From assembly GCA_023663915.1 (NCBI GenBank), contig JAMPGN010000022.1, positions 1 through 30,316 of the forward strand: a stretch of 30,316 bases of DNA, read 5' to 3'. Positions 1-17,899 of the stretch are shown here, piece by piece. The DNA is from Eubacterium sp. (GTDB lineage Bacteria > Bacillota_A > Clostridia > Lachnospirales > Lachnospiraceae). A model generated the notes under the pieces. It ran no database searches, was not told the origin of the DNA, and worked only from the letters and a program-made list of their open reading frames with translations. The position numbers and the translations under genes are program-made. The number at the start of each line of letters is the position of its first letter. The stretch's first letter is position 1.

Positions 1-1317
1 AGTGATTTCAATAATATTTTTCCAAAAAACAAGAAGATCCATGCCAACTTTTTTTTGATAATATATATTCATAATTATCCCATTAACTATAAGTAAGGAT
101 ATTCCTGTTGACATAGCTGCCCCGATCATTCCTAATTGTCGGACTAAAATAATCGTAAACGCCATGTTTATAATTGCTGATATAAAATACATTTTTGCTC
201 TAAATGCATATTTACCAACAATCTGTAAGATTGATAGTCCCATATGTTGGATAATATCAATCGTATACGGAATAATGACTATCAATGTAATAATATATGC
301 ATCAAGGTATTCATCTCCAACCCACAAAGCAATAAATTCTCTGCCAAATACGATAAAGCCAGATAAAATCAGCAATAATATCATATAAGCATATTTTCCT
401 ATCTCAGCAAACAAGTTTGACATTTGATTTATCCCATCTTCTTTTTCATTTAAACTGCTTAATTTAGGAAAAAATACAGATGAAATTGCAATTCCTATAT
501 TCATGTAACACATATTTATCTGCATAGCTATAGAATAAACTGCAACAACGGCAGTACTCAAATATTTTCCCAAGACCAACTGATCTGTTTTCCAAAAAAT
601 CTGATCGGCAATATTAGAAAATAGAATAAAACCTGCCAACGACAATATGCCTTTTAAAATCTGCTTATCATATGAATACATATGAATGCTTACACCTAAA
701 ATATGTATTGAATATTTATATTTCATCAAGGCTATTCCGGCATCCATTATAACTTGAATTATTACGATATATATTGCATATGGGTAAAAGTAAACTACAG
801 ACAAACAAACGATCGGCTGTAAAATTTGTGCTGCTAAGGTAATAAGTCTGTCTAACGTAAACTTTTCATAGGCAAAAACACTGGCAACATATATCGCATT
901 TGATGTAGAAATCAACAAATCTATAAATAACAGTCCCAACATCCATGTCGCTTCTTCTATTTGGGATTTCTGCAACGAAGCTGCATAAATAATTCTAAAT
1001 GCTATAATAATTACAACACTCAAGCTCAAAACAATTATAGATATTACTCTATATATAACTCTGGCATTCGCTAAAGTATTCTCTAACGTTTTCTTATCTG
1101 TCTGTTGAAGAGCCTTACAATAATATTTTAAAACGCCATTAGAAATGCTGGATTTAAATATAGTAATAAACGAAAAAAAGGATCCCACCATTTGATATAA
1201 ACCATATTCATCTTTACCTAACAGATTCAGTAATATCGGAACATACAACAAGCTTACGCAGATTGCTACTATCGTCTGAAGATAAGAAATAAATATACCT
1301 CTTTTTCTCTCATTCAT
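1..1317 (-). CDS. wzx: Wzx-type polysaccharide flippase, 3' end cut by window edge
   Basis: The reading frame runs open from the ATG at 1317 to base 1, giving 439 codons with no stop, so the C-terminus lies outside the window. The start MNERKRGIFISYLQ is followed by long hydrophobic segments and a KDEYGLYQMVGS-like stretch near residue 35, typical of MATE-like/MOP oligosaccharide flippases (usually about 450-520 aa). The family moves lipid-linked repeat units across the membrane for Wzy polymerisation. AAGGAG lies about 11 nt before the ATG, and the start overlaps the preceding glycosyltransferase by 8 nt, so translation is probably coupled. Very AT-rich. The class is clear; the substrate cannot be read from sequence. 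Confidence 0.88.
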   Translation of the reverse strand, partial: MNERKRGIFISYLQTIVAICVSLLYVPILLNLLGKDEYGLYQMVGSFFSFITIFKSSISNGVLKYYCKALQQTDKKTLENTLANARVIYRVISIIVLSLSVVIIIAFRIIYAASLQKSQIEEATWMLGLLFIDLLISTSNAIYVASVFAYEKFTLDRLITLAAQILQPIVCLSVVYFYPYAIYIVIIQVIMDAGIALMKYKYSIHILGVSIHMYSYDKQILKGILSLAGFILFSNIADQIFWKTDQLVLGKYLSTAVVAVYSIAMQINMCYMNIGIAISSVFFPKLSSLNEKEDGINQMSNLFAEIGKYAYMILLLILSGFIVFGREFIALWVGDEYLDAYIITLIVIIPYTIDIIQHMGLSILQIVGKYAFRAKMYFISAIINMAFTIILVRQLGMIGAAMSTGISLLIVNGIIMNIYYQKKVGMDLLVFWKNIIEIT

Positions 1318-2356
1318 TCAGAATTTTTCTCCTTAATCTTATCTTAAAATACAGATATATAATATTTACCAATTTCATTTTTATAAGCTGAAACAAAATT
1401 GCACTTTTTAAATCAACATTTTGAGTATCATAATGAAACCGGGAAAAAGATTCCCTGACAACATGCTCATTAACTATACTGGCAATTTCATTTAACATCT
1501 CCTTTTTTCCGTGCTCCGTACTATGAAATACATTTCCAATGCATTCTCTGGTATAGTTACGAATTGTATAGTCTAAACGCTTCTCATAGTCTTTTACCCC
1601 ATTTTCCTGACATAATCTCTTCAACTTTTCAATTACAATCATTCGTTTATAAAGCATATCATTTATATACTTATACTGATGTGACATCATTAACGAATCA
1701 GAATGGCAGCAATATCTATACAAACAATCTGCACTCATATACACTTTGTTACACGCCATCAAATACTCAAAAGTAAATAAAAGATCCTCGGCAAATTCAA
1801 TTCTTTCATCAAAAGAAATATTATAATTATTTATTATGTCTTTCTTATACAAATTAAGCCATACGGCTCCCCATATAACCTTATCCCTCTTTTTTTCTTT
1901 TCCTAAATAACTGTGTGCAAAACATAATATTTCTTCACGATTTTTCAAATCAACATCATTGATACATCCCATAACAGAATTTGTTCTCTCAGAAAAAAAA
2001 TTACATCCAACCATATCGTATTTTTCGATTTCAATCATTTGCAATAACTTTTCATACATTGTTCGTTCTGGAATATCATCTGCATCGCAAAAACCAATAT
2101 AATCTGCAGAACTATTTGCAATTCCCATATTTCTAGATGCACTCACTCCATTATGCGTATTTTTTATCATATTTATATTTGAATGTGTACATATAAAATC
2201 AGAAACTACCTCAACTGTAGAATCTACCGATCCATCATCAATGACTATAACCTCTATATCCTCGAATATAGTCTGATTAATTATGGCATTCAACGTCTTT
2301 CCTATACTTTTTTCTGAGTTATATGTAGGTATAATCAAACTAAGTCTTTTTTTCAT
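1310..2356 (-). CDS. GT2 family glycosyltransferase
   Basis: A 348-aa protein with a GT-A fold at the N-terminus: the LSLIIPTYN opening, EVIVIDDGS near residue 40 and the metal/nucleotide-sugar motif GFCDADD near residue 90. These are hallmarks of inverting GT2 enzymes that add a sugar to the lipid-linked repeat unit on the cytoplasmic face. The C-terminal 150 residues are divergent, rich in Lys/Ile/Tyr, with a weakly hydrophobic end that may touch the membrane. It sits between the pyruvyl transferase (72-bp gap) and the flippase (8-nt overlap). The ribosome site is weak (AGG about 9 nt before ATG). Donor and acceptor are unknown. Confidence 0.9.
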   Translation of the reverse strand: MKKRLSLIIPTYNSEKSIGKTLNAIINQTIFEDIEVIVIDDGSVDSTVEVVSDFICTHSNINMIKNTHNGVSASRNMGIANSSADYIGFCDADDIPERTMYEKLLQMIEIEKYDMVGCNFFSERTNSVMGCINDVDLKNREEILCFAHSYLGKEKKRDKVIWGAVWLNLYKKDIINNYNISFDERIEFAEDLLFTFEYLMACNKVYMSADCLYRYCCHSDSLMMSHQYKYINDMLYKRMIVIEKLKRLCQENGVKDYEKRLDYTIRNYTRECIGNVFHSTEHGKKEMLNEIASIVNEHVVRESFSRFHYDTQNVDLKSAILFQLIKMKLVNIIYLYFKIRLRRKILNE

Positions 2357-2428
2357 TACTTCAACCTAAATTTCTATTTTTACGACCACACAAAAGTCAT
2401 ATGTCTAGCATACAAAACCAACATTGTA

Positions 2429-3586
2429 TTACTCGAAAATTTTATTAATAAATTTTTTTGCGTCCTCACACTTATTTCGAGTAATTTCCTTTTTATTAGA
2501 ATAATCTATGTTTGTATTCAATTCATATATTTTCTCAATCTCTGTACTCATCAACAACTGATCTTGAAAATTATAATCCTCAATTAATGAATTCAGACGG
2601 ATATCTGGCTGTTTATGTCGATTTATACAGATAAAATTTTTTTCTAAAATAATAGATAATGCTGTTCCATGAAAGGAATCTGTAATAATCAACAACGCAT
2701 TATTAATCAACCCTGCAAAATCTTTTGGATCAGCATCCAATATCTCAATGTCTGCAAATCCTTCATCTACTTTTGAATATTTCCTATAGATGTGCGGTAT
2801 AAATACTATTTTCTTTTTTTTCCTGTTTGCATAGTCAACTATATTTTTTCGCACACTATTATCTTGTCCTAATAAATAGACAAAAATATAATCTTTTGGT
2901 AGTTGTTCCATATTTACAGAAAATTCTATCCACTCTGCCCTATCAAATAAAAAAACCGGATCTGCTATGACTGTACTCTTAACATTTATTTTCCTAAGTA
3001 ATTCATCAAATTCTCTCTCACGTACCGAAATAATATCCATCCTCTCAATATTTTTCCGTAGCTTATTTCGATAATAACCATTAAAATTTAAATTTGCACC
3101 TGCACTACAGCTATAACCTATTTTACGCGCACCTTTTATGTTTTTTCCAAAATAGTTACAATCAACCCATTCGGGATTCCACACTTGATCCCCTCCTACT
3201 ATATAATAGTCATAAACATCCTGAATTTTTTTTATTGATTGTGGTGTATAGACAGTAGTTGTTTGAAATTCCTTGTCCATAAAACTCTCAAATGCCTTCT
3301 GTATTTTATCTTCTCCAACAGACTTTAAATAATCTTCATATGCTTTTTGGTTAAATTTTTCCTGTTTTTTTTCTTTAATCCATTGCAAAGGATTAAAAAA
3401 AATTTCAAAAATCCTAAATAATCTATGCTTAATTTTTAAAATTATTCCATCAACTGCCTGCGTATATAATAATTCCTCACAATCATATCCTTTATTCTGT
3501 ATTGTTTTGTACAAAGCATATGCTTGCATCATTGCTCCATAGTTATAGTTTTTATATAGCAATGTATGTATCAATACCTTTTTCAT
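2429..3586 (-). CDS. Polysaccharide pyruvyl transferase family protein
   Basis: A 385-aa protein. The N-terminal YNYGAMMQAYALY motif (residues 14-26), the central YYIVGGDQVWNPEW and the later ITDSFHGTALSI block are characteristic of the CsaB/WcaK-like polysaccharide pyruvyl transferase superfamily. These put a ketal pyruvate on a sugar, adding negative charge; some members of the superfamily are instead glycosyltransferases, so the chemistry is inferred. I chose the ATG at 3586 because GGAGGG lies 8 nt upstream; an in-frame TTG at 3601 would overlap that ribosome site. It directly follows the polymerase gene, with 15 nt between, as part of one run of sugar-assembly genes. Confidence 0.85.
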   Translation of the reverse strand: MKKVLIHTLLYKNYNYGAMMQAYALYKTIQNKGYDCEELLYTQAVDGIILKIKHRLFRIFEIFFNPLQWIKEKKQEKFNQKAYEDYLKSVGEDKIQKAFESFMDKEFQTTTVYTPQSIKKIQDVYDYYIVGGDQVWNPEWVDCNYFGKNIKGARKIGYSCSAGANLNFNGYYRNKLRKNIERMDIISVREREFDELLRKINVKSTVIADPVFLFDRAEWIEFSVNMEQLPKDYIFVYLLGQDNSVRKNIVDYANRKKKKIVFIPHIYRKYSKVDEGFADIEILDADPKDFAGLINNALLIITDSFHGTALSIILEKNFICINRHKQPDIRLNSLIEDYNFQDQLLMSTEIEKIYELNTNIDYSNKKEITRNKCEDAKKFINKIFE

Positions 3587-3601
3587 ATCAATACCCTCCA
3601 A

Positions 3602-4759
3602 TTAGATATTCTGTTTGTTATTAGCAGCAGCCAATAACATCCCTATTGGCAATGCTGATATTGGTGTCTGTACCGTTACTTCCGTAAATGACGCTATTAA
3701 AAATCCCATGAAACCTATAACCAAAACAATTTGATAATCTTGCATTTCTTTATTCAAATATATGCCATTAACTACATACACTATATATGCCAAATAAAGT
3801 ATTAATCCAAATATTCCAAAATTCATAATGATTCCAAGATATGAATTATGAAGTGAGAAATTTTCACTAAAACTTTTTTCTATCCAAGAACCTGCTCCAA
3901 ACAAAAAGGCTTTTCTGTTGTTAAGTTCATATTTAAAAAAATTGCTCCATGCTCTCTCCCTGCCTGTATACAAATATTTACCAGTATATTTATGGATCAA
4001 TATAGATAATTCTTTACTGGAAGATTGTAATGAATACCAATAAGGAACTAAGCATCCCAATGCAAAAAAGAAAACTATCATCATTATGACAAATCTTTTC
4101 TTTTGCCAAATAGCATGCGATAAAAAGAACCAAAAAATACCAACCGCAATCACTACCATAGAATATGTTCTGCAAGACAATTTATATTCACAATATATTG
4201 TCAGCAGCCACACCAAGAAAAAAAAAGCCTTATTAAACCGACTGATAGATATTGCATAATACAGGAAAACAATAAACGCAAAATACATAAACATTCCTAC
4301 TGTATTAGGATTCAAACTATCATGCATATTTAACATCCAGTTGTAATAATATGCGCTAATTTTTAAAAAATATCGGACGACTACTAAAACACTAAAAAAT
4401 GCTATTACCTTCCATGCGCCATTTGAAAATGTGTGCTTGCTGAAAATAGATAGAACCAAAAACAACTCAATGAAAGCAACAACGGCGCCTATGCTATTCC
4501 CATTAAAAACCGAAACAATAACGGCATAACAAATCACCAATGCTACAAATATAAATTCCGCTTTCTCGTATCTATACATTTTAAACTTTATTAGCATAAC
4601 AATGTATAAACTTAAATTTATATACGCAACAACACCATAATATATAACATAAATGGGATAACTGATATGTACCACAACATTGGCAAGAATAACGGCTAAT
4701 GCAAGTAGCTCTTCTCTTTTTAAAGAAAAAAACATACACCTATTCAAAAAATCTTTCAT
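3602..4759 (-). CDS. wzy: Wzy-type O-antigen/capsule polymerase
   Basis: A 385-aa, strongly hydrophobic protein with about ten predicted membrane helices and one larger hydrophilic stretch around residues 240-290 (SSKELSILIHKYTGKYLYTGRERAWSNFF). The C-terminal HNSYLGIIMNFGIFGLILYLAYI segment resembles the Wzy/O-antigen-ligase family, where the H and the large outer loop serve polymerisation. By analogy it joins flipped repeat units on the outer face of the membrane. Sequence in this family diverges strongly, so identification rests on topology, the RERAW/HNSYL motifs and context. Only 4 nt separate it from the GT2 gene stop; no clear ribosome site is seen, consistent with coupled translation. 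Confidence 0.85.
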   Translation of the reverse strand: MKDFLNRCMFFSLKREELLALAVILANVVVHISYPIYVIYYGVVAYINLSLYIVMLIKFKMYRYEKAEFIFVALVICYAVIVSVFNGNSIGAVVAFIELFLVLSIFSKHTFSNGAWKVIAFFSVLVVVRYFLKISAYYYNWMLNMHDSLNPNTVGMFMYFAFIVFLYYAISISRFNKAFFFLVWLLTIYCEYKLSCRTYSMVVIAVGIFWFFLSHAIWQKKRFVIMMIVFFFALGCLVPYWYSLQSSSKELSILIHKYTGKYLYTGRERAWSNFFKYELNNRKAFLFGAGSWIEKSFSENFSLHNSYLGIIMNFGIFGLILYLAYIVYVVNGIYLNKEMQDYQIVLVIGFMGFLIASFTEVTVQTPISALPIGMLLAAANNKQNI

Positions 4760-4763
4760 AATC

Positions 4764-5768
4764 TTATTGATAAGAAATATTAATAAATTTCTTTCCTTTC
4801 CTCATGAGATATCGAGTTAAATCATAGTTTGTGCAAAACATAACAACTAATAATTTTCTAGATATAGGAAATGATGCCTTCAACAACTCACTTTTATGTT
4901 TTTTCAACTCCGTAATTAACTGCTTTTTTTCGTTTTCAAATAAGATATCCTTATCCTTATTGTTTAAAGCAAGCCTTACTAATAAACCCATATTTGCCCT
5001 ATAATAATTTAATTGCGCATATTCAACCCATTGAGAATGTGATATCTTGCAAAGATCAACAACTTTTTTCCAAACTGTCAGCAAATCCATCTGTTCATGA
5101 CTAAACCACCTATAAGAAATCCCATTCGGGTTTTTCCAATAATAATACAAATCCATATCAATCGTAACTATTTTATCAGCTACTAATAATGCAGTAAAAA
5201 ATCCTTCAACATCCTCATCAATAACACCTTCTGGAAAATGAATATTTTCCGCTACTTTTATATCATATAATTTATTAACCACATACAAAACTGGTTCATT
5301 TGAATTAATTCTAAAAAATTTACGTGCAAATTGTTCTTGTGTATATTCAATAATAGTACCGCTTTTTTTTCTTAAAATTATCGATTCCTTATCCGTTCTT
5401 ATAATATTTCCAACTGAAATTGAAGCATCATATTTCTGTATTATATCCAGCAAAATTTCATACATATTATTTTCCACCCAGTCATCTGAATCAACAAATC
5501 CTATATATGAACCTTGTGCTTCTGCTAATCCAGCATTTCTAGCTGAGCCTAATCCACCATTAATTTTATGTATAACTCTTACTCTCTCATCTTTCTTACT
5601 CCATTCGTCACACATTTCCGGACAATTATCTGGTGATCCATCATCTACCAAAATAATCTCAAGATTACGATATGTCTGATTAACTATTGAATTCATGCAT
5701 CTATCTAAGTATTGCTCAACCCTATATACCGGAACAATCACCGATATCAACGGATTTTTCCCTTCCAT
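4764..5768 (-). CDS. GT2 family glycosyltransferase
   Basis: A 334-aa GT-A glycosyltransferase: LISVIVPVYRVEQYLDRCM at the N-terminus, EIILVDDGSPDNCPEMCDEW, then NGGLGSARNAGL and the DxD-like GFVDSDDW. This pattern is typical of capsule GT2 enzymes such as EpsJ-like transferases. The ATG at 5768 is preferred because GGGGGA precedes it closely; an upstream in-frame start at 5801 would add MQSKSRCGGLV without a ribosome site. The gene overlaps the end of the GT4 gene by 47 nt. The boundary near 5.8 kb is also where base composition drops to the AT-rich part of the cluster. Sugar specificity is unknown. Confidence 0.9.
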   Translation of the reverse strand: MEGKNPLISVIVPVYRVEQYLDRCMNSIVNQTYRNLEIILVDDGSPDNCPEMCDEWSKKDERVRVIHKINGGLGSARNAGLAEAQGSYIGFVDSDDWVENNMYEILLDIIQKYDASISVGNIIRTDKESIILRKKSGTIIEYTQEQFARKFFRINSNEPVLYVVNKLYDIKVAENIHFPEGVIDEDVEGFFTALLVADKIVTIDMDLYYYWKNPNGISYRWFSHEQMDLLTVWKKVVDLCKISHSQWVEYAQLNYYRANMGLLVRLALNNKDKDILFENEKKQLITELKKHKSELLKASFPISRKLLVVMFCTNYDLTRYLMRKGKKFINISYQ

Positions 5769-6990
5769 TACCAATCCCCCACATCTGCTTTTGCTTTGCA
5801 ACCCTATTTACAATCCCAACAATCTTCAAATAACTCACTGCCCGGTCAAATTTTTTCTCAGCCAGTTCCCTGGCATTTTTCCCCTGACCGCCATCGCCAT
5901 CCATATATTTCTCAATCACTTCCACCAACTTCTGAATATTGCCCGGTTCAACATTAGTCCCGATATCATTCTCTCCAACCATCTTACAAAACAATGGATT
6001 TTCTAAGGTATTTATCATAGGCTTGCCGCTCGCCAGATAATCACCTATTTTATTGACAATGCTTTGCGGCGCTCCTCTCACAAAACTATTCACTACCACA
6101 TCTGACTTATTAAGCGCCGCCGCCATTTTGGGATATGCTGTAAAGCCCCAAAAATGAATATTCTCCATATCCCTGCTATAAACTTCTAATTTTTCTTTCA
6201 AGCTGCCTGTTCCAAGTATCTGTACTTGTACGCCTCTATTTCTCAGACTGTATCCTGCATCTATAAGTGTTTTGATATCATAGCTTGTACTGATAGAGCC
6301 GGCATATGTAACCCAGAACTCCCCCTCCTTTTTCTCTATCTCTGCACTGTACTTCTCAACACCATCATCGAAATCTTTCAAATTGCATCCTACATATACA
6401 GTTTCCGCCGGAATATTTCTCTTACGTCTTCTAAATGCTCTATTTGTATAGTCATCAGATGTGCCAATAATTCCATCTGCATTTCTATAAGTCTTTTCTG
6501 CATCTTTTGCAAAAGAATAAAGCAGCAGCTTTCTCAACCAGTCATTTTTGATTACCATGGACATAGCTTCCGGCCATAGATCCTCAATATCTACCACAAC
6601 TGGCACGTTATTTTTTTTACACATATCAGTTGTCATAGCAGCAATATCATTTGCCGGAATTGATATGTAAACAACATCATATTCTTTCACATGCACGGAT
6701 AAATATTTTTTCAAATTACCGGTCGCCTTCTTATTACTTAAAACTCTTCTAATATCTATATTCTTCTTATAAGCCGGCGCATCTATAAAGGTAATTTTGA
6801 AGGGATACCCCTGTTTTAGAATTAATGCTTTATCTCTCGGCATTTTTTTGAAATGTTGAAAACCCGTAGTAATGCATTCCACATCATATCCTGCATTCAC
6901 AAATGTTTTTGCTATATCAAAAAACCTTGAAGTTCCCGATTCGCATGGAAACCATAGATACCCTAGAGAAATAATAGCAATTTTCTTCAT
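5722..6990 (-). CDS. GT4 family glycosyltransferase (WbuB-like)
   Basis: A 422-aa protein with a two-domain GT-B layout. The N-terminal Rossmann half starts MKKIAIISLGYLWFP; the mid-region has VDIEDLWPEAM, seen in WbuB/WcaI-type GT4 enzymes; the C-terminal half has WVTYAGSISTSYDI, VQILGTGSLKEKLE and GAPQSIVNKIGDYLASGKP, the usual EX7E-like nucleotide-sugar region. It probably adds the second sugar of the repeat unit, acting right after the initiating transferase whose gene it overlaps by 4 nt (ATGA). Retaining chemistry is inferred from the family. Base composition is intermediate between the GC-richer export genes and the AT-rich distal genes. Confidence 0.9.
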   Translation of the reverse strand: MKKIAIISLGYLWFPCESGTSRFFDIAKTFVNAGYDVECITTGFQHFKKMPRDKALILKQGYPFKITFIDAPAYKKNIDIRRVLSNKKATGNLKKYLSVHVKEYDVVYISIPANDIAAMTTDMCKKNNVPVVVDIEDLWPEAMSMVIKNDWLRKLLLYSFAKDAEKTYRNADGIIGTSDDYTNRAFRRRKRNIPAETVYVGCNLKDFDDGVEKYSAEIEKKEGEFWVTYAGSISTSYDIKTLIDAGYSLRNRGVQVQILGTGSLKEKLEVYSRDMENIHFWGFTAYPKMAAALNKSDVVVNSFVRGAPQSIVNKIGDYLASGKPMINTLENPLFCKMVGENDIGTNVEPGNIQKLVEVIEKYMDGDGGQGKNARELAEKKFDRAVSYLKIVGIVNRVAKQKQMWGIGNGREKSVDIGDCSGI

Positions 6991-8363
6991 CCCTCAACAT
7001 CCCACTTCCCAATCATCTTACTCTTCCCCTCCTCAAACCCTTCCGTGCTCTCCGCAATAAACAGCGTCTTCACCGTCAGCATGATCATCTTCAAGTCCAG
7101 CAAAAAGCTCTGGTTCTCGATATACATCAAATCCAGCTTCAGCTTGTCATACGCGCTCGTATTATACTTCCCGAATATCTGCGCATACCCCGTCAGTCCG
7201 CCTTTCACCCGCATACGGTAAGCAAACTCCGGCACCTCCCTGCAGTACTTCTCCACATGCTCCACCCGCTCAGGCCTGGGACCAACCACGGACATATCCC
7301 CTTTCAAGATATTGAATATCTGCGGAAGTTCGTCAATTCGAAATCTCCTGATCACGTTCCCAACCTTCGTGATCCGTGGGTCATGATCCGTACAGGGAAT
7401 GACCGCGCCCTGCTTCTCCGCATCCGCAATCATGCTCCGAAACTTAATGATCTCAAACACCCTGCCATTTACGGTGCACCGCTTCTGTTTAAAGAAAACC
7501 GGCCCGCCGTCCTCTAACTTAATCGCTATGGCAGTAATGAACATCGGCACTGCCGCCAGCACAAGCGCGATCACGGACACTGTCAGGTCTAACAGGCGTT
7601 TTGCCCTGTACTGTCTCGTGTCCATATAGTGGTATTCATACTTGAACAGAGGTGTATCGATCAGCGTCCTCTCCTCAAATCCCTGCAGGATAATGTCCGA
7701 TATTCTCGGCGTGATGTAGAGGTTTTTCTGATGCTCTATACAGTACTCCATCGTGCTTGTCCTGCCGCCGTCCACGATCTCGTACAAGACGACCGTATCA
7801 TAGCGGTCTATCTTTTCATGAAGCTGTACCATTGTGCAGTCATCTATCCTGATACATTCTTTGATCCGGAAAAGATGCTCGTATTTTTTTTTGAGCTTAT
7901 CTACAAATTCATCTGCATTTTCCTTTCCATATATGACTAAGGTATCTGCCGCCTCTATGTACCGGATAAAATACTGTTTCGTATAGACCGTCCACACAAC
8001 CATTCCTATGATCTGAGCGCCCGCTGTGGCAAGTCCCGGCAGAATATTGACATAGTGGCGGCTTACCAGGCAACACTCGACATACAGTACCGTATCTGCC
8101 AGTCCGATTGCCAAAAACTGCGAAAAAATGATCTCGCTGACTTTATAAGTTCCAATCTTATAGGCACGGTACAACTTTGCAAAATAATTGTAGACAACAT
8201 AATAAATGAAAACACTGATGAACCCGCCTGCCGCGCGGTTTGTCCCAAACACAAACTGATTGTAATAACAGAACCAGACAACTGAAAACAGGAAAATAAT
8301 ATATATATTTATGATTTTTTTCGACTTGGATACGATCTTATCCTTTTCTTCCAGAAGGTTCAC
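6987..8363 (-). CDS. Initiating sugar phosphate transferase (polyprenyl glycosylphosphotransferase)
   Basis: A 458-aa WbaP/CpsE-like enzyme. Residues about 17-130 hold four predicted membrane helices, 140-235 a nucleotide-binding-like CoA_binding_3-type domain, and 255-458 the catalytic bacterial sugar transferase domain: KRLLDLTVS membrane re-entrant helix, FKQKRCTVNG at 291-300, FKxRSM-like KFRSM at 307-311, the catalytic DE pair in RIDELPQ (344-345), GDMSVVGPRPE at 355-365, and GLTGYAQI. It transfers a sugar-1-phosphate to undecaprenyl phosphate and so starts each repeat unit. Start is GTG at 8363 with GGGAG about 11 nt upstream. It follows the second LCP-like gene by 47 nt. Confidence 0.95.
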   Translation of the reverse strand: MNLLEEKDKIVSKSKKIINIYIIFLFSVVWFCYYNQFVFGTNRAAGGFISVFIYYVVYNYFAKLYRAYKIGTYKVSEIIFSQFLAIGLADTVLYVECCLVSRHYVNILPGLATAGAQIIGMVVWTVYTKQYFIRYIEAADTLVIYGKENADEFVDKLKKKYEHLFRIKECIRIDDCTMVQLHEKIDRYDTVVLYEIVDGGRTSTMEYCIEHQKNLYITPRISDIILQGFEERTLIDTPLFKYEYHYMDTRQYRAKRLLDLTVSVIALVLAAVPMFITAIAIKLEDGGPVFFKQKRCTVNGRVFEIIKFRSMIADAEKQGAVIPCTDHDPRITKVGNVIRRFRIDELPQIFNILKGDMSVVGPRPERVEHVEKYCREVPEFAYRMRVKGGLTGYAQIFGKYNTSAYDKLKLDLMYIENQSFLLDLKMIMLTVKTLFIAESTEGFEEGKSKMIGKWDVEG

Positions 8364-10265: not shown

Positions 10266-11159
10266 CTATTCGGCAACGACCCTGTTGATGGTTCCAGCCG
10301 CATCTGTCGTCAGTACGGCGACCACTACCATCTGTCTGTCATCTGTCTCATCCTTCTGCGTCGTCAGCGTGACTAAAAACTGATAAGGCGTCAGCCCGTC
10401 CCAGCCTTCCCGCAGATTCCTGCCAAGCTCCCTTGTCCCGTACAGGTCATCCAAAAACTGCTGGCATCCGGCAAGGTAGGTAAAATCATATTCCCGGATC
10501 AGGCTTGTGTTTTCCCTCTCATACGCGGCAAAAATCTCATAAGTCAGCACATTGCCATCCAGATAGATGTATAGCTGTTCATGTTCGCTGAAATAATCCG
10601 GATCGGCAAAACGGTAAAGCTGCGCAAACGGTCCAGTCTCTTCCGTTCCCGTCCTGCCATGCACCACCGTGTTGAAATCACACATATTCGCCTGATTTGC
10701 CAGTTCTATGTAAACTGCCCCGTCCGCGTCTTCCTCCCCAGAAGCGTTATGGGTCTCGTAATAATCGTCTCCCTGCATACTCTGCAAAATCGGTACGTCA
10801 ATCTCTGTGCCCAGCACATACAGCCATGCAAATATCTCAGGATTTTCCGCCTTCAGCGCGGCAAAGTCCACTTGCGCATCCTGCGCGCCTTCTCCATCTA
10901 TCCCGGCAGCGGATACATCCGCCCCGCCTTCTGCTTCTGACGCATCCCCCGCGTCATTTCCTGCATCACCGTCTGCCGCCGTAAGATCCGTTTCCGGTGC
11001 ATTTTCTGCATCCTGTGCACCGCATCCTGCCAGTCCCAGTACCCCAGCCAGAATGCATGCAGCAAACATATATCTTCCTGCTGACACTTTCCCAGCTGTC
11101 ACTGTCCTGCCGCTTCCCGCCATTTCGTTTGCTTGCTTCCATTTACTCCACTTTTTCAT
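10266..11159 (-). CDS. Sortase-B-fold lipoprotein lacking catalytic residues
   Basis: A 297-aa protein. A basic N-terminus and hydrophobic segment end in a lipobox LAGC (43-46), so Cys46 should be lipidated. After an acidic Ala/Asp/Glu/Gly linker (50-98), residues 100-297 follow class B sortases: FAWLYVLGTEIDVPILQ, DDYYETHN, GAVYIE, DFNTVVHGRTG, FAQLYRFADPDYFSEHEQLYIY, LVTLTTQ and RQMVVVAVL. The catalytic His of the usual YGH motif is Arg169 (HGR) and the catalytic Cys of TLxTC is Gln268 (TLTTQ); only the Arg (R275) may remain. Transpeptidation is therefore unlikely; a binding or scaffold role is inferred. TGGAGA precedes the ATG; the start overlaps the LCP gene by 17 nt. Confidence 0.82.
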   Translation of the reverse strand: MKKWSKWKQANEMAGSGRTVTAGKVSAGRYMFAACILAGVLGLAGCGAQDAENAPETDLTAADGDAGNDAGDASEAEGGADVSAAGIDGEGAQDAQVDFAALKAENPEIFAWLYVLGTEIDVPILQSMQGDDYYETHNASGEEDADGAVYIELANQANMCDFNTVVHGRTGTEETGPFAQLYRFADPDYFSEHEQLYIYLDGNVLTYEIFAAYERENTSLIREYDFTYLAGCQQFLDDLYGTRELGRNLREGWDGLTPYQFLVTLTTQKDETDDRQMVVVAVLTTDAAGTINRVVAE

Positions 11160-12285
11160 AAAAAATCTCCAGAATCATCTCACACAGTTTCTCTTCATCG
11201 GGATAAAACTCTTCAAATTTTTCTCCCATGATGGTTTCCCCGCTCAACGTATAGAAACTATCTTCGCCGAAATGGTAATTAACCACAGTCGGAGCAAGGT
11301 ATGCCACCTCATCCAGTGTAATATCTGTGACCATCTGCGGCATAACCGCCTGATACAGATTCGTAACCACGGATAAATCTTTCTTTGCAGCTCCCGCCGC
11401 CGTCCCGACTAACGCTTTAAGATACTGTTTCTGCCTGTCCAGTCTCATGTCCGCCGAGCCAAACTGATCCATATTTCGATAGTCTACATACCAGAATGCG
11501 CTTTCTCCCATCAGATGCACTTCCTGCCCTTCCACGAGGCTTTTATCAACACTGGTCATATCTTCCATGACTTTCACATCCACACCGCCAACCGCATCAT
11601 TGATGGTAGCGATCGCGCTCATATTGACTGCTGCATACCCATGTATAGGCAGATTGTAAAATAATTTCTGTACCGCCTTTTTCTGGTACTCGCAGCTCTC
11701 TTCCATGCCGTTGCCGAAACCATGCTGGATGGCAAGCTGCGCTTTCGCGGTCGTCACATAAGCTCCTGTCTCGTTATAGAAATCGATGTCCGTCATCGTG
11801 TTCCGGTTAATCCCGACAATCTTAATCGTCCTGTCTTTCGGATTCATGACTGCCAGAAACAGGGCATCCGCCTGTCCGCCGTTTGTCCCTTCCGCCACCT
11901 CTCTGACATCTCCTATCTTATCGATGCCCATAATGAGAAAAGTCATGATCTCTTCATTGTATTCATAGACATTGTCCCCATATTTGATCCATCCTGCCTT
12001 CCATTCGTCCTCCTGTTCCTCTTCCGGCACTTTTTCCCCGAAAGACTCTTCCAGTATGGGCTGTGCCTCCTCCGCTGCCGCAAGCAGGCGGCTTCTTCCC
12101 ATCGCGCGCACGATCTGCAGTCCGCCTATAACGCATCCTGCAAGAACCAGAACCGATCCCGCCGCAATCCATGCCGCGCGTTTTCTTTTCTTCTTTTTTC
12201 TCCTGAGGACTTTCTCCGGGTTCAGGATCTGCTCTTTTTCCAGATCCGCTTGTTCATCCTGTTTTCTTTTCCTGTTCACACCCAT
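11143..12285 (-). CDS. LCP family glycopolymer transferase (LytR-CpsA-Psr)
   Basis: A 380-aa protein with a very basic cytoplasmic tail (residues 25-37), one helix at about 38-58, then an outer LCP domain. Key features are present: DALFLAVMNP (D140), GINRNT with R161, HGYAAVNM, GGVDVKV, LVEGQEVHLMGESAFWYVDYR and the ADMRLDRQ motif (R281, R284). LCP enzymes move lipid-linked glycopolymers onto peptidoglycan or proteins, so this is the likely ligase anchoring the capsule. The ribosome site is weak. It lies 65 nt after the Ig-like gene and overlaps the sortase-like gene. Compared with the paralogue at 8411-9379 it retains all motifs. Confidence 0.92.
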   Translation of the reverse strand: MGVNRKRKQDEQADLEKEQILNPEKVLRRKKKKRKRAAWIAAGSVLVLAGCVIGGLQIVRAMGRSRLLAAAEEAQPILEESFGEKVPEEEQEDEWKAGWIKYGDNVYEYNEEIMTFLIMGIDKIGDVREVAEGTNGGQADALFLAVMNPKDRTIKIVGINRNTMTDIDFYNETGAYVTTAKAQLAIQHGFGNGMEESCEYQKKAVQKLFYNLPIHGYAAVNMSAIATINDAVGGVDVKVMEDMTSVDKSLVEGQEVHLMGESAFWYVDYRNMDQFGSADMRLDRQKQYLKALVGTAAGAAKKDLSVVTNLYQAVMPQMVTDITLDEVAYLAPTVVNYHFGEDSFYTLSGETIMGEKFEEFYPDEEKLCEMILEIFYEKVE

Positions 12286-13244: not shown

Positions 13245-14048
13245 TTACTCAAAATCTTCTATATACTCCATCTCATCTTCTTCTTCATCCTCTTCTGTCT
13301 GGATGGAAACCTCCCGTGATTTTTTGCCGCCCTGTCCGCTTTCCACCCCATATCTGCCGTAATACTTCCCATAGTACTTCCCATAGTATCTGCCGTAATG
13401 CCCATAATAGCCGCGGCTGTTCATCTCCACTTTATTCAGCACAACCCCGAGAATCTTGCTGTCCGCCTTGTCAAGCTGGTCTTTTACACGCTGGGCAAAA
13501 CGGTAGCTGACCGCGTTGCTCTCCACGACGAGTATCGTCCCGTCGCTGATCTTTGCCACCACAGCGGCGTCAATTACACTGCCAAGCGGCGGTGTGTCTA
13601 TGAATATGTAATCATAATTTCCCTTAGCAGACTCCAATAACTCTATGAATCTGCCGCTTCCAAGTAATTCACTTGGATTGGGCGGCACCGGACCGGAAAA
13701 GATCATATCAAGTCCCGGCACGTTCGTCCTGCACGCCACATCCTCATAGCCGTACTTCCTCACCAGACAATGACTCAGCCCCAGCCGCACGCCTCCGGTC
13801 TTGTAACGCCCGACCAGCACGGACTTGCGCATGTCCGCGTCAATCAGCAATATCTTATTTCCCGCTTCCGCAAAAGATCTGGCAAGCTCGACCGTGATGC
13901 TGGACTTTCCCTCGTTCGGCGTGCAGCTTGTCAGCGCCACCACCCGGACGTCACTCCCACAGAACTCCACGTTGGTTCTCAGTGTCTTATATGCTTCCTT
14001 GACGCGGTAATCTTCACTTTTGTCAAACTGTAAGTTTACTTCCTGCAT
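13245..14048 (-). CDS. cpsD: CpsD/CapB-type tyrosine autokinase
   Basis: A 267-aa bacterial tyrosine kinase. The P-loop is at about 42-50 (CTPNEGKSS), Walker A' at 68-76 (LLIDADMRKS) and Walker B at 147-154 (DYIFIDTPP). The C-terminus carries ten Tyr in residues 214-233 in a YYGKYYG repeat, the autophosphorylation cluster, followed by an acidic tail (EEDEEEDEMEYIEDFE). With CpsC it controls polymer length and export; CpsB removes the phosphates. GAGGAAAG lies just upstream of the ATG. It follows cpsC by 60 nt. The Tyr repeat is coded by near-identical short DNA units that could slip in length. Confidence 0.95.
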   Translation of the reverse strand: MQEVNLQFDKSEDYRVKEAYKTLRTNVEFCGSDVRVVALTSCTPNEGKSSITVELARSFAEAGNKILLIDADMRKSVLVGRYKTGGVRLGLSHCLVRKYGYEDVACRTNVPGLDMIFSGPVPPNPSELLGSGRFIELLESAKGNYDYIFIDTPPLGSVIDAAVVAKISDGTILVVESNAVSYRFAQRVKDQLDKADSKILGVVLNKVEMNSRGYYGHYGRYYGKYYGKYYGRYGVESGQGGKKSREVSIQTEEDEEEDEMEYIEDFE

Positions 14049-14108: not shown

Positions 14109-14852
14109 CTATGCCATCTTCCGCTTTTTCTTCTTTGTTTTCTTTTTCTCCTCCGCATCTTCCACGAGCGGAATCAACGCGAGGGTGCTCAGCCCTAGAT
14201 ATTTTTCTATGTCATCAGCGGATTTCACCGTATCATCCATGAGGTACTGCACCAGAATCATCGCGCAGACGATAAGGATTCCAATCATCCCACCGATAAA
14301 TGTCCACCGGAATACCGACGGTCCCGCTTTCCTGATAGGCATATTGGCGGTTTCCACCACATTCACCGCCTCGATATCCATGACATTCTGAATGTGTTCC
14401 CCCGCCACTTCCCGGATACAGTTTGCGATCTTCATCGCCATTGCTGGGTCGGTATGCTCCACCGTGATGGACACGATCCGGGTGTCCGTCGGCGTGGTCA
14501 CGCTGACGGTGTCAAGCAGATCGTTGTACGTCATCTCTTCCAGCCCCAGCTTCTGGATGACTTCCTCCAGCACATAGCGGCTTCCGATCAGTTCCGCATA
14601 ATCTTTGGTCAGCTGCGTCCCCATCTGCACATCGCTGTAAGTGACCGATGCACTTTCCGTCTTGTTCAAAATATAGATTTTCGTAGTTGATTCATACACC
14701 GGTGTCAAGATAAATTTACTGAGAATAAAACATAAAATTGCCGCCATAAACCCGACGTTCAGGATCAGCCCGATCCTGCCAAGAAGGATGCCCAGCAGTT
14801 CCAGCAGGTCGATTTCTATTTCCTGATTCTCTCTTTCTCTCTGGCTTTCCAT
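14109..14852 (-). CDS. cpsC: CpsC/Wzz-type chain-length regulator and kinase activator
   Basis: A 247-aa polysaccharide co-polymerase. The N-terminal EIDLLELLGILLGRIG precedes membrane helix 1 (about 29-51), followed by FILTPVYESTTKIYIL typical of the Wzz domain, a periplasm-equivalent alpha-helical part, the Pro/Gly segment ANMPIRKAGPSVFRW before helix 2 (about 182-204), and a Lys-rich cytoplasmic tail (KKKTKKKKRK) that should contact CpsD. Separate membrane and kinase proteins are the Gram-positive arrangement. AAAGGA is about 12 nt before the ATG. It sits between the phosphatase and the kinase as in the standard cpsB-C-D order. Confidence 0.94.
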   Translation of the reverse strand: MESQRERENQEIEIDLLELLGILLGRIGLILNVGFMAAILCFILSKFILTPVYESTTKIYILNKTESASVTYSDVQMGTQLTKDYAELIGSRYVLEEVIQKLGLEEMTYNDLLDTVSVTTPTDTRIVSITVEHTDPAMAMKIANCIREVAGEHIQNVMDIEAVNVVETANMPIRKAGPSVFRWTFIGGMIGILIVCAMILVQYLMDDTVKSADDIEKYLGLSTLALIPLVEDAEEKKKTKKKKRKMA

Positions 14853-14944: not shown

Positions 14945-15670
14945 TCATATATATTCGTCCTCTATGACGTGCACCGGATTGCCGCAGAAAAGCTCCCGCC
15001 GGTAATCCTCCCCGAACTTCTTTCCGATATATCCCGCACACTCTGCCAGGCGCGGCGCTCTCCTGCCCGTGTCATGGGCATCCGATGCCACAAAGGAAAC
15101 CAGCCTTTGTTTTAATAATTTCCTTGTAAACTGTTTCGCCGCAAACCCGAAATTTCCCATGACGCTTCCTGCGTTGACCTGCATATAGCATCCCATCTTT
15201 ACGAGTTCATCCACGCCTGTTTTTTTGCTGCATACATTGCGGTATCTTTCCACATGTGCAAGAACCGGACGGTAGCCATGCGTCTGCAGCGAGTAGACTC
15301 CGTTCCGGATATAGTCGTACCCGGTATCCGGCGAAAACTCGATCAGCACATAATGGGAATCCGCCAGCGTCATCGCCTCGCCAGCGTCCAGCTCCTCGGC
15401 AAGCCCATCCCGATAATAGAGTTCACTGCCTGCATACAGCCTGACCGCCGTCTGCCTTTCGTCCAGGAACCCCTGCAGCTCTCCCATACGCTCCACGATC
15501 CGGTGCGGCGGCACATTCCGGTGCGCCGGCTTGTTATGCGGCGTCAAGATAATGTGCGAAATGCCGTCCTCTGCCGCCATGGTCAACATCTGACGGCTGG
15601 TTTCCGGACTGTCCGCACCGTCATCCACGCACGGTATAATATGGGAATGGATATCAATGCAGTTTTCCAT
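14945..15670 (-). CDS. cpsB: CpsB-type PHP-family protein tyrosine phosphatase
   Basis: A 241-aa metal-dependent phosphatase. PHP motifs are complete: DIHSHIIPCVDDGA (H8, H10, D16), TPH (H45), GSELYY (E83), AHVERY (H139) and SDAHD (D197, H199). It dephosphorylates the Tyr cluster of CpsD and so tunes capsule production. This is the first gene of the polysaccharide operon; its start lies 54 nt from the left recombination-like site, so any transcription from the recombinase segment enters here. The ribosome site is modest (AGAAG about 7 nt upstream of the ATG, with GGAG further away). Confidence 0.94.
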   Translation of the reverse strand: MENCIDIHSHIIPCVDDGADSPETSRQMLTMAAEDGISHIILTPHNKPAHRNVPPHRIVERMGELQGFLDERQTAVRLYAGSELYYRDGLAEELDAGEAMTLADSHYVLIEFSPDTGYDYIRNGVYSLQTHGYRPVLAHVERYRNVCSKKTGVDELVKMGCYMQVNAGSVMGNFGFAAKQFTRKLLKQRLVSFVASDAHDTGRRAPRLAECAGYIGKKFGEDYRRELFCGNPVHVIEDEYI

Positions 15671-15723: not shown

Positions 15724-15752
15724 ATTTCGTAAAATATCTCATTTTACGAAAT
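15724..15752. repeat. Left recombination-like site of the proposed invertible segment
   Basis: A perfect palindrome: arms ATTTCGTAAAA and TTTTACGAAAT (11 bp each) around the asymmetric 7-nt spacer TATCTCA. This is the layout of a tyrosine-recombinase core site: two inverted binding arms around a crossover region. The same 27-bp core, with one mismatch and the same spacer, recurs inverted at 17259-17285. It lies between the recombinase 3' end and cpsB. Confidence 0.85.
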
Positions 15753-15793
15753 CAGACCAGGACTTCTGATTTAGACTGAAAATTCAACTTTGC

Positions 15794-15815
15794 TGACGAG
15801 AATTTTGACGGCTAT
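15794..15815 (+). repeat. Direct repeat 1 flanking the recombinase gene
   Basis: 22 bp containing AGAATTTTGACGGCTAT, repeated in the same orientation at 16989-17010 with one mismatch (G versus C at the fifth base). It lies 42 nt inside the left inverted site and 37 nt after the recombinase stop. It could be an accessory recombinase-binding site or a duplicate left by insertion of the recombinase gene. Confidence 0.75.
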
Positions 15816-15852
15816 CCGGTTGAGTCTGTGTCTGTTTTCAATTAAGTATTCG

Positions 15853-16971
15853 TTAACGGACAGCGGAATCATATTGCATCATCAGCAGCCGTTTCTGCTG
15901 GACCGTAGAATGCACATACAGTTTCAATGTCATCTGGATATTGCTGTGCCCCAATATTTCACTCAGGCTCTTGACATCCAGTCCGATCGCGACACACCTT
16001 GTCGCAAAGACATGCCGCAGCATATGGAAATTAAAATGTTCAATCTGACATTCCTGCAGAATACCTTCAAAACGGTACTGTATCGTGCGCGGCTCCGCCC
16101 ATGGCAGTTTCACGCCGTTTACGACATAATCCGTCCCGATTCTCTGATGCTGCCGCAGAATCGGAATCAGGCGCGGCGGCAGGGGAATGATTCTAAGGGA
16201 ATCGGAAGATTTCGGATTTTGTTTTACGACCTGTGTCCTGCCCTCGTCTTCTTCAGACTGTTTATTTCTATATACCCTTAACATATTTCTCCTCACGTAA
16301 AGTATCCCTTCGTCAAGATCGATATCATTCCACAAAAGTGCGCTCAATTCTCCTATGCGTATGCCTGTATGAAGGGCAATCAGAATGCCAAGGCATGTTC
16401 TGTTGTCACTGTGGCTTAACAGATAATCCTCCAGAACGGACAATGACACATCGCTCGGCAGTATGATATTTCCTGCCTTTTTCGAGGCAACTGGATTCTT
16501 AGGCACAATAATGCCGTTGTCATACTGTTTATTCATATAGAGCATGATCCTGCGCACCATGGAGCATATCTGGAACATATAATTTCCCGATAATGCACTC
16601 TCCGGTTCGTGTGCGTTTACTTTTTCCATAAAATCCATCATGATACGGTCCGTGATCTGACTGATCCTGATCTGCCCGATATAGGGAAGGATGTACTTAT
16701 CCAGCATCCGGGTGTAGGACGAGTATGTCCCCGCCTTCCAGTAAGGAGACTGGGATTTTATCCACAACTGCACCGCCTCCGCCATCGTATAATCTTCCCC
16801 GTCTTTTTTCTCAGTTTTCTGCATAAGACGGTACATCTTGTCCCTGACTTCCTTATAGGTTTTCCCGTACACCGACCGATAACCGTATCTTCCTATACCG
16901 ATCTGCTCACGGATTCTTCCCTCCCATCTCCCGTCTTTTCTCTTGTAAATGTTTTCACCTCTTTTTGGCAT
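15853..16971 (-). CDS. Tyrosine recombinase (phage-integrase family)
   Basis: A 372-aa integrase. The N-terminal RKDGRWEGRI is an AP2-like/arm-binding start seen in Tn916-type integrases; a SAM-like core-binding domain spans about 60-165; the catalytic domain from about 175 has all active residues: R205 (HTGIRIGEL), K254 in the beta hairpin, H316 and R319 (HMLRH), H342 (LGHSN) and nucleophile Y352 (LYVHS). I chose ATG 16971 because AAAGGAG lies about 6 nt upstream; an upstream frame extension to 17040 crosses the direct repeat and is unlikely. No excisionase gene is near. It lies alone between two inverted sites upstream of cpsB, suggesting a DNA invertase. Confidence 0.92.
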   Translation of the reverse strand: MPKRGENIYKRKDGRWEGRIREQIGIGRYGYRSVYGKTYKEVRDKMYRLMQKTEKKDGEDYTMAEAVQLWIKSQSPYWKAGTYSSYTRMLDKYILPYIGQIRISQITDRIMMDFMEKVNAHEPESALSGNYMFQICSMVRRIMLYMNKQYDNGIIVPKNPVASKKAGNIILPSDVSLSVLEDYLLSHSDNRTCLGILIALHTGIRIGELSALLWNDIDLDEGILYVRRNMLRVYRNKQSEEDEGRTQVVKQNPKSSDSLRIIPLPPRLIPILRQHQRIGTDYVVNGVKLPWAEPRTIQYRFEGILQECQIEHFNFHMLRHVFATRCVAIGLDVKSLSEILGHSNIQMTLKLYVHSTVQQKRLLMMQYDSAVR

Positions 16972-16988
16972 AAAAAACTCCTTTCTTT

Positions 16989-17010
16989 TGACCAGAATTT
17001 TGACGGCTAT
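16989..17010 (+). repeat. Direct repeat 2 flanking the recombinase gene
   Basis: Second copy of the 22-bp direct repeat (see 15794-15815), placed 18 nt upstream of the recombinase ATG and just downstream of a candidate promoter. The site would lie at the 5' end of the transcript or over the start region, so recombinase binding here could also repress its own gene; that is inference. Confidence 0.75.
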
Positions 17011-17011
17011 T

Positions 17012-17040
17012 ATTTTCTTATCCTTGAAAAAAAGCGTCAA
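17012..17040 (-). promoter_or_regulatory. Candidate promoter of the recombinase gene
   Basis: Minus-strand TTGACG at 17040-17035, a 17-nt spacer and GAAAAT at 17017-17012. It places a start near direct repeat 2 and about 40 nt ahead of the recombinase ATG. The -35 is good, the -10 only fair. Confidence 0.4.
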
Positions 17041-17257
17041 TTAACCGTTTGTTGTATCAATATACAGTATACAACACAGCTTTCGGATAAAGCACTCGCC
17101 GTCCTGTTTCGGACAAATCAGGACCGGATAATCAAAATTCTGTAAAAAGTCATACAACGATCTCCTATATAGAGGATATTTTCAGCATATTTCCAGTTGC
17201 TTTTTTGAAAATAATGTAGTACGATACAATAAGTTTCATGAAAAAGGGCGGATGATT
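17041..17257. other. Non-coding right part of the invertible segment
   Basis: No gene seen in this stretch or in the following 17287-17423. It is AT-rich and holds small inverted repeats: GTTGTAT / ATACAAC at about 17051-17075 and GTCCTG / CAGGAC at about 17099-17124. Together with the outward promoter candidate this is the likely regulatory part of the segment. The 17287-17423 stretch between the right site and the arsR-type gene shows no convincing terminator for that gene. Confidence 0.45.
17197..17230 (+). promoter_or_regulatory. Candidate outward promoter at the right end of the invertible segment
   Basis: On the plus strand TTGCTT (17197-17202), 17 nt, TACGAT (17220-17225), with an overlapping TACAAT at 17225-17230 preceded by a T-run. 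It reads out across the right inverted site, away from cps and antisense to the arsR-type gene. After inversion it would read across the left site into cpsB. The hexamers are imperfect; position gives most of the support. Confidence 0.35.
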
Positions 17258-17286
17258 TTTTCGTAAAATGAGATATTTAACGAAAA
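17258..17286. repeat. Right recombination-like site, inverted copy
   Basis: Arms TTTTCGTAAAA and TTTAACGAAAA around spacer TGAGATA, which is the reverse complement of the left spacer TATCTCA. Read on the minus strand it matches the left site over 27 bp with one mismatch (T for A in one arm). The matching asymmetric spacers in opposite orientation are what inversion by strand exchange requires. Confidence 0.85.
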
Positions 17287-17423: not shown

Positions 17424-17786
17424 CTATTCCAACGGACAAGATATTCTGAACATCTCCTCGCAGACGCGATGGACGATCTCTGCCTGCTGTGTATCCGCCA
17501 GTTTGTAATATACCTCTTTCCCGTCCCGGCGGCTTACGATCAGCCCGCTCCCCCGCAGCAGCTTGAGATGGTGCGACACCGCAGGATCGCTCATATCCAT
17601 GGCGGCGGCAATATTGCTGACGCATTCTTCGCAGTGGCACAGAAGCCACAGAATCCGTAATCTCGACCCATCGCTGATCTGCTTGAATATTTCCGCTACC
17701 TGTGCACATTCGTCCTGTCCCGGCAGTTTTGCAAGCACTTTGCCTATATTCTGCCCGTGGTCATGCGGTAGTTTTATGTCAACCAT
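17424..17786 (-). CDS. ArsR/SmtB-family metal-sensing repressor
   Basis: A 120-aa winged-helix regulator: ISDGSRLRILWLL, then CHCEECVSNIAAAMDMSDPAVSHHLKLLRGSGLIVSRRDGKEVYYKL, the classic HTH and wing. CHCEEC in helix alpha3 resembles the ELCVCDL metal site of CadC/ArsR sensors; an N-terminal HDHG and the C-terminal Cys/His (VHRVCEEMF) could add ligands. ATG 17786 is chosen for AAAGGATAGG just upstream. It follows the P-type ATPase by 113 nt, so here the regulator lies downstream of the pump rather than before it. Probably it represses the pump promoter and releases on Zn, Cd or Pb. Confidence 0.92.
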   Translation of the reverse strand: MVDIKLPHDHGQNIGKVLAKLPGQDECAQVAEIFKQISDGSRLRILWLLCHCEECVSNIAAAMDMSDPAVSHHLKLLRGSGLIVSRRDGKEVYYKLADTQQAEIVHRVCEEMFRISCPLE

Positions 17787-17899
17787 TTTCCTATCCTTTC
17801 TTCTGACAGGCAACGCCAGACAGCCCCGTGCGTCTCATCTCTCAAGTCTGCAATAGCGCCAGATCTGCCGCCTACATTGTAATAACGGCATAAGCTGTC

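Follow-up and report, generated by a model that had tools for sequence, protein, structure and literature searches.

In Bacteroides, the inversion of promoters as a basis of capsule phase variation has been studied extensively, and the capsules of Bacteroides fragilis are switched mostly in trans by the serine invertase Mpi. Hin, the enzyme of the Salmonella switch, is a serine recombinase as well. In the available part of PMC5903667, recombinase genes are described as lying occasionally within the invertible segment, with Hin as the example. Arm-binding domains are tied, in the accessible sections of PMC8138268, to integrases of mobile elements, among them the IntTn916 subgroup with the integrases of Tn916 and Tn1549. 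As far as the available text of PMC11892184 describes it, inverton group 139 holds 33 invertons, 32 of which come from Clostridia, and a tyrosine-type recombinase, invertase group 35, is linked to one repeat family. In that text, an invertase is termed proximal if it intersects an inverton or lies within 5 kb of it, and the recombinase family of group 139 is placed among the non-regulatable, i.e. not intersecting, genes.

Here, we analysed a putative inverton in the window, the whole 30,316-base stretch of DNA presented above. It consists of two core sites in inverted orientation and, between them, one complete recombinase ORF, which reads toward cpsB:

15725..15751, plus strand: left core recombination site, next to cpsB, with a 10-bp arm, the 7-bp spacer TATCTCA and a 10-bp arm; sequence TTTCGTAAAATATCTCATTTTACGAAA
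17259..17285, minus strand: right core recombination site, inverted, with identical spacer and one arm mismatch
15853..16971, minus strand: tyrosine recombinase (invertase) gene, 372 aa, with N-terminal arm-binding-type, core-binding and catalytic domains

Over the 27 bp compared, the right site is the reverse complement of TTTCGTAAAATATCTCATTTTACGAAA with one mismatch, and the 7-bp spacer is the same at both oppositely oriented sites, the matching crossover region of an inverton. Elsewhere in the window no further match to TTTCGTAAAATATCTCATTTTACGAAA at up to 3 mismatches was found, and shuffled sequences gave 0/100. At the left site, 12-bp arms around a 5-bp loop form a perfect palindrome (equivalent to 11+7+11 in the framing of the sequence-only reading), while the palindrome at the right site has a single arm mismatch. 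That reading had proposed two inverted sites with an identical asymmetric spacer, a complete tyrosine recombinase gene inside the segment and a left site 54 nt from the first codon of cpsB; the match between 15725-15751 and 17259-17285, the Pfam-supported gene at 15853-16971 and the cpsB start at 15670, 54 nt from the left core site, bear out all of this.

With the Bacteroides capsule promoters, the cassette shares inverted repeats around a putative promoter ahead of a polysaccharide operon and relatives with opposite orientations, but it differs by its internal recombinase, by the arm-binding type of this enzyme together with candidate arm sites, and by its length of ~1.5 kb. The Salmonella Hin switch likewise carries its recombinase gene inside the flipping segment, according to the available part of PMC5903667, whereas the cassette enzyme is a tyrosine and not a serine recombinase and comes with arm-type sites. 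The same part of PMC5903667 describes the RecV switches of Clostridioides difficile, which resemble the cassette in their tyrosine recombinase, their occurrence in Clostridia and the switching of surface genes, but RecV serves several switches, and arm sites are not mentioned for it there. Likeness to the IntTn916 subgroup lies in the N-terminal three strands plus helix, in Tn1549 Int as best fold match and in arm-type sites; however, the members described in the accessible sections of PMC8138268 serve ICEs or phages, while the cassette comprises a putative promoter and the recombinase as its only gene between inverted sites, an arrangement in which no mobile element of this type is recognised. 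Group 139 with invertase group 35, in the available text of PMC11892184, is similar in being mostly clostridial and in having a tyrosine-type recombinase, a comparison made by description rather than by repeat motif; the cassette-side repeat to be set against the group 139 motif is TTTCRYARADNNNNNNNHTYTRYGAAA. Among the titles and abstract beginnings listed by a literature search, with subscription papers and preprints lying outside it and thus weak evidence of absence, there was no self-encoded tyrosine-recombinase inverton with arm sites from Clostridia and, within the same limits, no comparable capsule promoter inversion from Lachnospiraceae or Oscillospiraceae.

The recombinase matches the Pfam families Phage_integrase (E 8.4e-23) and a SAM-like domain (E 9.9e-11). 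Residues R205, K254, H316, R319, H342 and Y352, which are of the catalytic type, are invariant across 33 aligned recombinases, the window's included. A longer ORF of 395 aa is possible, while the alignment places the conserved start at the ATG at 16971. In the predicted model (pLDDT 84), the N-terminal domain is composed of three strands and a helix (E8-10, E16-25, E28-36, H39-56), the arrangement of the IntTn916 type, and a second model was similar. Foldseek comparison of this domain with solved structures gave no significant E-value among the top three ranks: rank 1 was an unrelated Dicer-like protein, rank 2 was the arm domain of Tn916 Int (1bb8, E-value 1.2), and rank 3 was 1gcc, a domain of AP2 type (E-value 1.5). 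For the whole model, the best fold match was the Tn1549 integrase with a TM-score of 0.57-0.60 by query length. In the model of the catalytic domain, strand 246-251 is placed between strands 229-234 and 260-263, in a low-confidence stretch; recombinases of the IntTn916 type have a beta-stranded insertion between catalytic strands 2 and 3. Judged by its model, the window recombinase appears to be of the arm-binding (IntTn916) type.

A protein search scored 7,998 candidates, of which 6,518 proteins reached E<=1e-20, the nearest besides the window's own showing 71% identity. In 397 sampled genomes of the family of Lachnospiraceae bacterium 28-4, 45 contained a relative at E<=1e-80, with at most five candidates scored per genome. 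Genomic loci were scanned for the best 80 of 563 relatives, which is a biased sample; cps genes like those of the window adjoin 8 of these 80 (L006, L007, L009, L010, L011, L013, L015 and L016). Inverted repeats flank the recombinase in 63 of the best 80 of 563, a figure from a search which itself required inverted matching at a low cut-off. For the spacer test, sites were therefore selected by their 10-bp arms alone, so that inverted matching was not presupposed; the finder used a 27-bp frame and accepted scores above 18.5, a threshold exceeding the value of 18.2 that marks the 99th percentile in 268 background intervals. The 29-bp frame with 11-bp arms, tried as a site model, recovered both sites in merely 3 of 81 loci and was replaced by this frame. 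Among the 81 loci (the best 80 of 563 relatives plus the window), both sites exceeded the cut-off in 49, the left site alone in 10, the right alone in 9 and neither in 13, so that 32 failed the two-site test. In 48 of the 49 two-site loci from this sample the inverted spacer was identical at 7/7 positions, and in the remaining one at 6/7, compared to a mean of 2.8/7 between loci and of 2.2/7 in direct reading. The spacer thus differs among loci yet is the same at both sites of a given locus, which is what an exchange of strands between inverted sites demands. Separately, inverted site pairs around the recombinase were seen in 4 of 14 IMG/VR loci examined (L085, L087, L088, L104), while at L082 and L083, which are identical to each other, a flanking repeat was not found; some cassettes may ride on prophages, or may be host DNA in viral contigs.

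Besides the core sites, the segment contains a direct repeat of 17 identical bases, absent from the sequence-only reading and conserved in relatives, which constitutes two candidate arm-type sites beside the core sites, as in the IntTn916 type:

16989..17007, minus strand: candidate 5' arm-type site GCCGTCAAAATTCTGGTCA, its end separated by 17 nt from the start codon of the recombinase
15794..15812, minus strand: candidate 3' arm-type site GCCGTCAAAATTCTCGTCA, with 42 nt between it and the inner boundary of the left core site

The 19-bp motif RCCGTCAAAnnnnnnGTCA, derived from repeats in the same loci that were later scored, was present, reading the same way as the recombinase gene, on the 5' side of 47/49 and on the 3' side of 46/49 loci from the best 80 of 563 plus the window. 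On the opposite strand the counts were 3/49 (5' side) and 7/49 (3' side), and in shuffles 19/245 and 18/245. Between the end of the 5' motif and the recombinase start there are 11-29 nt (40 in one locus), and the 3' motif and the core are 40-51 nt apart (64 in one locus). The distance between 5' core and arm varies from 114 to 356 nt in steps of ~10 bp, with a helical phasing of R 0.57 at 10.1 bp that was equalled in 0/5,000 jittered sets, or in 4/5,000 with each of the 39 distances counted once; the loci being related, these are not strict probabilities. An N-terminal motif is encoded by 79 of 82 non-identical segments, 75 of which have both arms, 4 one and 0 none. The other three segments are L204, in which the N-terminus was missed by the motif search and the arms are variant, and L009 and L213, which have neither the N-terminal domain nor true arm sites, the one weak match in L213 (10.6) lying in a stretch extended into the gene. 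Since L009 and L213 share a clade, in which L210 also groups, and hence represent one event, the joint absence of domain and arm sites is suggestive only. The recombinase probably works with arm-type sites.

Evidence for flipping comes from relatives. In the draft genome of Lachnospiraceae bacterium 28-4 (L011), the segment is present in two opposite orientations, identical over 1,501 bp, around a 200-N gap; both contigs break where the identity of the 19-bp repeat ends, and the 5' side of the recombinase adjoins lytR in one copy and the opposite flank in the other. The pair could also be a true inverted duplication. The orientation comparison among related genomes that had been suggested as a check revealed both orientations at cps operons: of the unique cps-linked cassettes, 25 (window included) share the window's orientation and 3 are opposite (L011, L197, L201). 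Flanking repeats were looked for at the 25 cassettes of the first group, and none was found at 4 (L007, L010, L216, L222). L197 and L201 are congeneric with cassettes oriented as in the window (L015, L016, L198 and L202). The sister cassettes L198, L197 and L201 group in a single recombinase clade and share the outward promoter TTGCCA-17-TATAAT, with L198 opposite to the others relative to cpsB.

Exact sites numbered 51 in 20 genomes, while a reversed control pattern gave none. Seven of these 51 sites coincide with a contig end to within 1 bp (20 genomes, the length of contig G406:C1 being unseen), where ~0.05 are expected assuming 500 contigs per genome:

G001: contig-end site on C128
G421: contig-end sites on C64, C71, C83 and C121
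G484: contig-end site on C78
G490: contig-end site on C109

G421 displays two contig pairs, each reading from two flanks into one site and stopping there, the pattern expected if the assembly forks between two orientations. The recombinase is in view for one contig-end site only (G001:C128). It is possible that repeated elements caused the breaks, and TnpB-like genes adjoin three of the seven sites; low-k repeat forks are likewise possible, but the contigs involved are long, e.g. 183,811 bp. Contigs which start within the 5' flank (L007, L010, L022, L057, L058, L064) do not fit the fork argument, and a cpsB search in G001 and G004 gave no match. On G533:C1 the site is duplicated 51 bp apart (298368-298394 and 298419-298445), placing three sites at one cassette. 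L199 and L200 (in G410 and G405) have recombinase genes and unrecognisable sites, and are apparently decayed and locked. Taken together, the spacers identical in inverted orientation in 48/49 loci, L011, the opposite cps orientations and the contig ends argue for inversion, as the sequence-only reading had predicted, rather than for excision or repressor binding. For the window's own strain, flipping is predicted by sequence comparison.

The genes which the switch would control read away from the left site; a hairpin and a candidate promoter within the segment are listed after them:

14945..15670, minus strand: cpsB (CpsB/CapC family), first gene of the operon; PF19567, E 3.8e-93
14109..14852, minus strand: Wzz-type chain length determinant, by Pfam
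13245..14048, minus strand: CpsD-type ATPase; AAA_31 and ParA, the CpsD role inferred by position
11143..12285, minus strand: LytR-CpsA-Psr family protein, by Pfam
6987..8363, minus strand: initiating sugar transferase; Bac_transf, E 5.1e-64, role inferred
1..6990, minus strand: glycosyltransferases, pyruvyl transferase, Wzy-like polymerase (below the Pfam cut-off) and Wzx-like flippase
15752..15779, minus strand: weak hairpin (-4.5 kcal/mol) that separates the recombinase stop from the left site; a terminator role is unsupported here
17197..17225, plus strand: candidate outward promoter TTGCTT-17-TACGAT, a weak match picked by eye from its position in relatives

The gene of the Wzx-like flippase extends past the window edge. 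Because the operon has cpsB, wzz, cpsD-like, LytR-type, transferase, Wzy-like and Wzx-like genes, capsule operon, of the Wzx/Wzy type, seems a fair description, within which sequence cannot separate a capsule from an exopolysaccharide. Past the right site, an ArsR-type regulator and a P-type ATPase (17424-19777) read toward the cassette, and the candidate outward promoter is currently directed at the 3' end of these genes.

Scored as a sigma-70-type promoter against mononucleotide shuffles, an outward promoter in the 5' flank of the recombinase reached z>1.5 in 54/64 segments (mean z 3.5). The other three combinations of flank and strand did so in 6/64, 3/62 and 3/62, the 6/64 referring to the 5' flank read on the strand of the recombinase, where promoters are thus not enriched. 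In the window itself, the best outward match of the script lay elsewhere and was not significant (z 0.8), and a general promoter scan of the window missed the candidate at 17197-17225 and gave nothing useful; in relatives, comparable hexamers, likewise spaced by 17 nt, occur at about this position. As the candidate promoter points away from cpsB, the present orientation of the window is probably OFF. That the on/off phase variation of the polysaccharide, as proposed earlier, works by a promoter switch is supported by an outward promoter that the family has on one side only. No clear terminator was found in the window (fold z -0.56), and read-through from the recombinase into cpsB is therefore possible. 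Terminators were rejected as a directional signal, since forward and reverse scores are alike: terminator-like hairpins precede the 3' site in 25/49 loci and equally in 25/49 in reverse direction (shuffled 6/49). Just beyond the 3' site of L040, L061, L063 and L073, TATTATACCA-like stretches were noticed by eye, which resemble extended -10 elements directed into the segment.

We consider it very probable, judging from sequence, that 15725-17285 is a self-encoded inverton with an arm-binding recombinase, in which an outward promoter is flipped to switch the polysaccharide operon, and that the window captures the OFF or low state. In this model, the core-binding and catalytic domains of the recombinase would bind both inverted core sites while the N-terminal domain would bind both arm-type sites, and strand exchange within the identical 7-bp spacers would invert the 1.5-kb segment. 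In the present orientation, the promoter upstream of the recombinase gene would face away from cpsB, leaving the operon OFF or low; after inversion it would adjoin cpsB and drive cpsB-wzz-cpsD and the downstream genes. Since the gene moves with the segment, the recombinase would keep its own upstream region in both states.

The polarity could also be the opposite one: the window would then show the ON state, in which the recombinase promoter transcribes the cps operon together with the recombinase, and inversion would turn it OFF. Recombinase and operon are indeed codirectional in 25 of the 28 unique cps-linked cassettes, and the window is without a strong terminator between the two, but the outward promoter is the sole enriched one of the four flank/strand combinations and strong hairpins lie ahead of the 3' site in L030, L037, L075 and L076, which makes this polarity unlikely in our view.

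A minimal mobile element, with the sites as ends of a moving integrase-only element and no switch at all, would agree with the resemblance of the recombinase to conjugative-transposon integrases (with Tn1549 Int as the best fold match) and with the many unrelated genes that cassettes precede. We nevertheless regard it as highly improbable, since inverted spacer identity in 48/49 loci predicts inversion, outward promoter and arm geometry are conserved, and segments too short for the gene still have inverted sites; the cassette may have spread over evolutionary time. That the palindromes bind a regulator and do not recombine is suggested by their symmetry and their closeness to the promoter region, but nothing requires an operator to have a centre that agrees at both sites of one locus and differs from locus to locus, the pattern seen here, and relatives show both orientations, so that we give an operator almost no credence.

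The inversion switch may also extend to sites without a recombinase gene of their own. G003 and G406 contain further cpsB genes behind short inverted site pairs, whose spacing is too small for a recombinase gene; the recombinase beside cps is L010 in G003, its own sites unseen, and L198 in G406, with both sites present. Three such satellites were characterised:

L243: core sites 5727-5753 and 6231-6257, with two arm sites (by arm pattern) between them
L265: core sites 649-675 and 1000-1026, with one arm site
L266: core sites 685-711 and 1038-1064, with one arm site

In each of them 26/27 inverted bases match and the spacers are identical; the contigs of L265 and L266 hold only the first part of cpsB, behind an HTH gene. 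The satellites suggest that the function of arm sites would lie in recombination and not with the recombinase gene, and that the enzyme may act in trans. Small Cro/CI-type HTH genes were also observed first beyond the cassette or satellite (L265:255-623, L266:291-659, L017:7237-7668), HTH_3 occurs in 5 of 46 right-hand neighbours, and by eye, outside the scan, an HTH gene is present in L197 and L201.

In a quick tree, 27 of 28 rows of cps-linked recombinases fall into one 43-row clade (SH-aLRT 98), and the cps label changes 11 times versus 25 in shuffles, with many rows drawn from genera already known for such loci. Cassettes not linked to cps precede response regulators, surface proteins, FtsK/FHA proteins and others, as seen from 46/53 right-hand and 24/28 left-hand neighbours scanned. 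Cas12f1-like or TnpB-domain genes start beyond the sites in six loci (L042:3717-5069, L077:7324-8640, L272:5301-6656, L263:28-1431, L268:4051-5355, L273:5060-6445), the domains of L042 and L077 scoring slightly below the Pfam cut-off; a TnpB-like protein may thus be under inverton control.

The cassette belongs to a widespread family which uses an integrase type normal for mobile elements. We find it reasonably likely that a Clostridia clade of ICE/phage-type arm-binding integrases became portable, self-contained promoter-inversion cassettes with helically phased, intasome-like arm-site control, some of which flip recombinase-less satellite capsule promoters in trans. Arm-binding integrases, linked to mobile elements in the accessible sections of PMC8138268, would here appear in a regulatory role, and arm-less recombinases and recombinase-less satellites constitute natural variants for probing arm-site function. 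If true, Firmicutes would have in this system a counterpart to the phase variation of multiple capsules in Bacteroides. The cassette architecture, recognisable from sequence alone, predicts where bistability may be expected among the surface polysaccharides and other operons of these gut bacteria.
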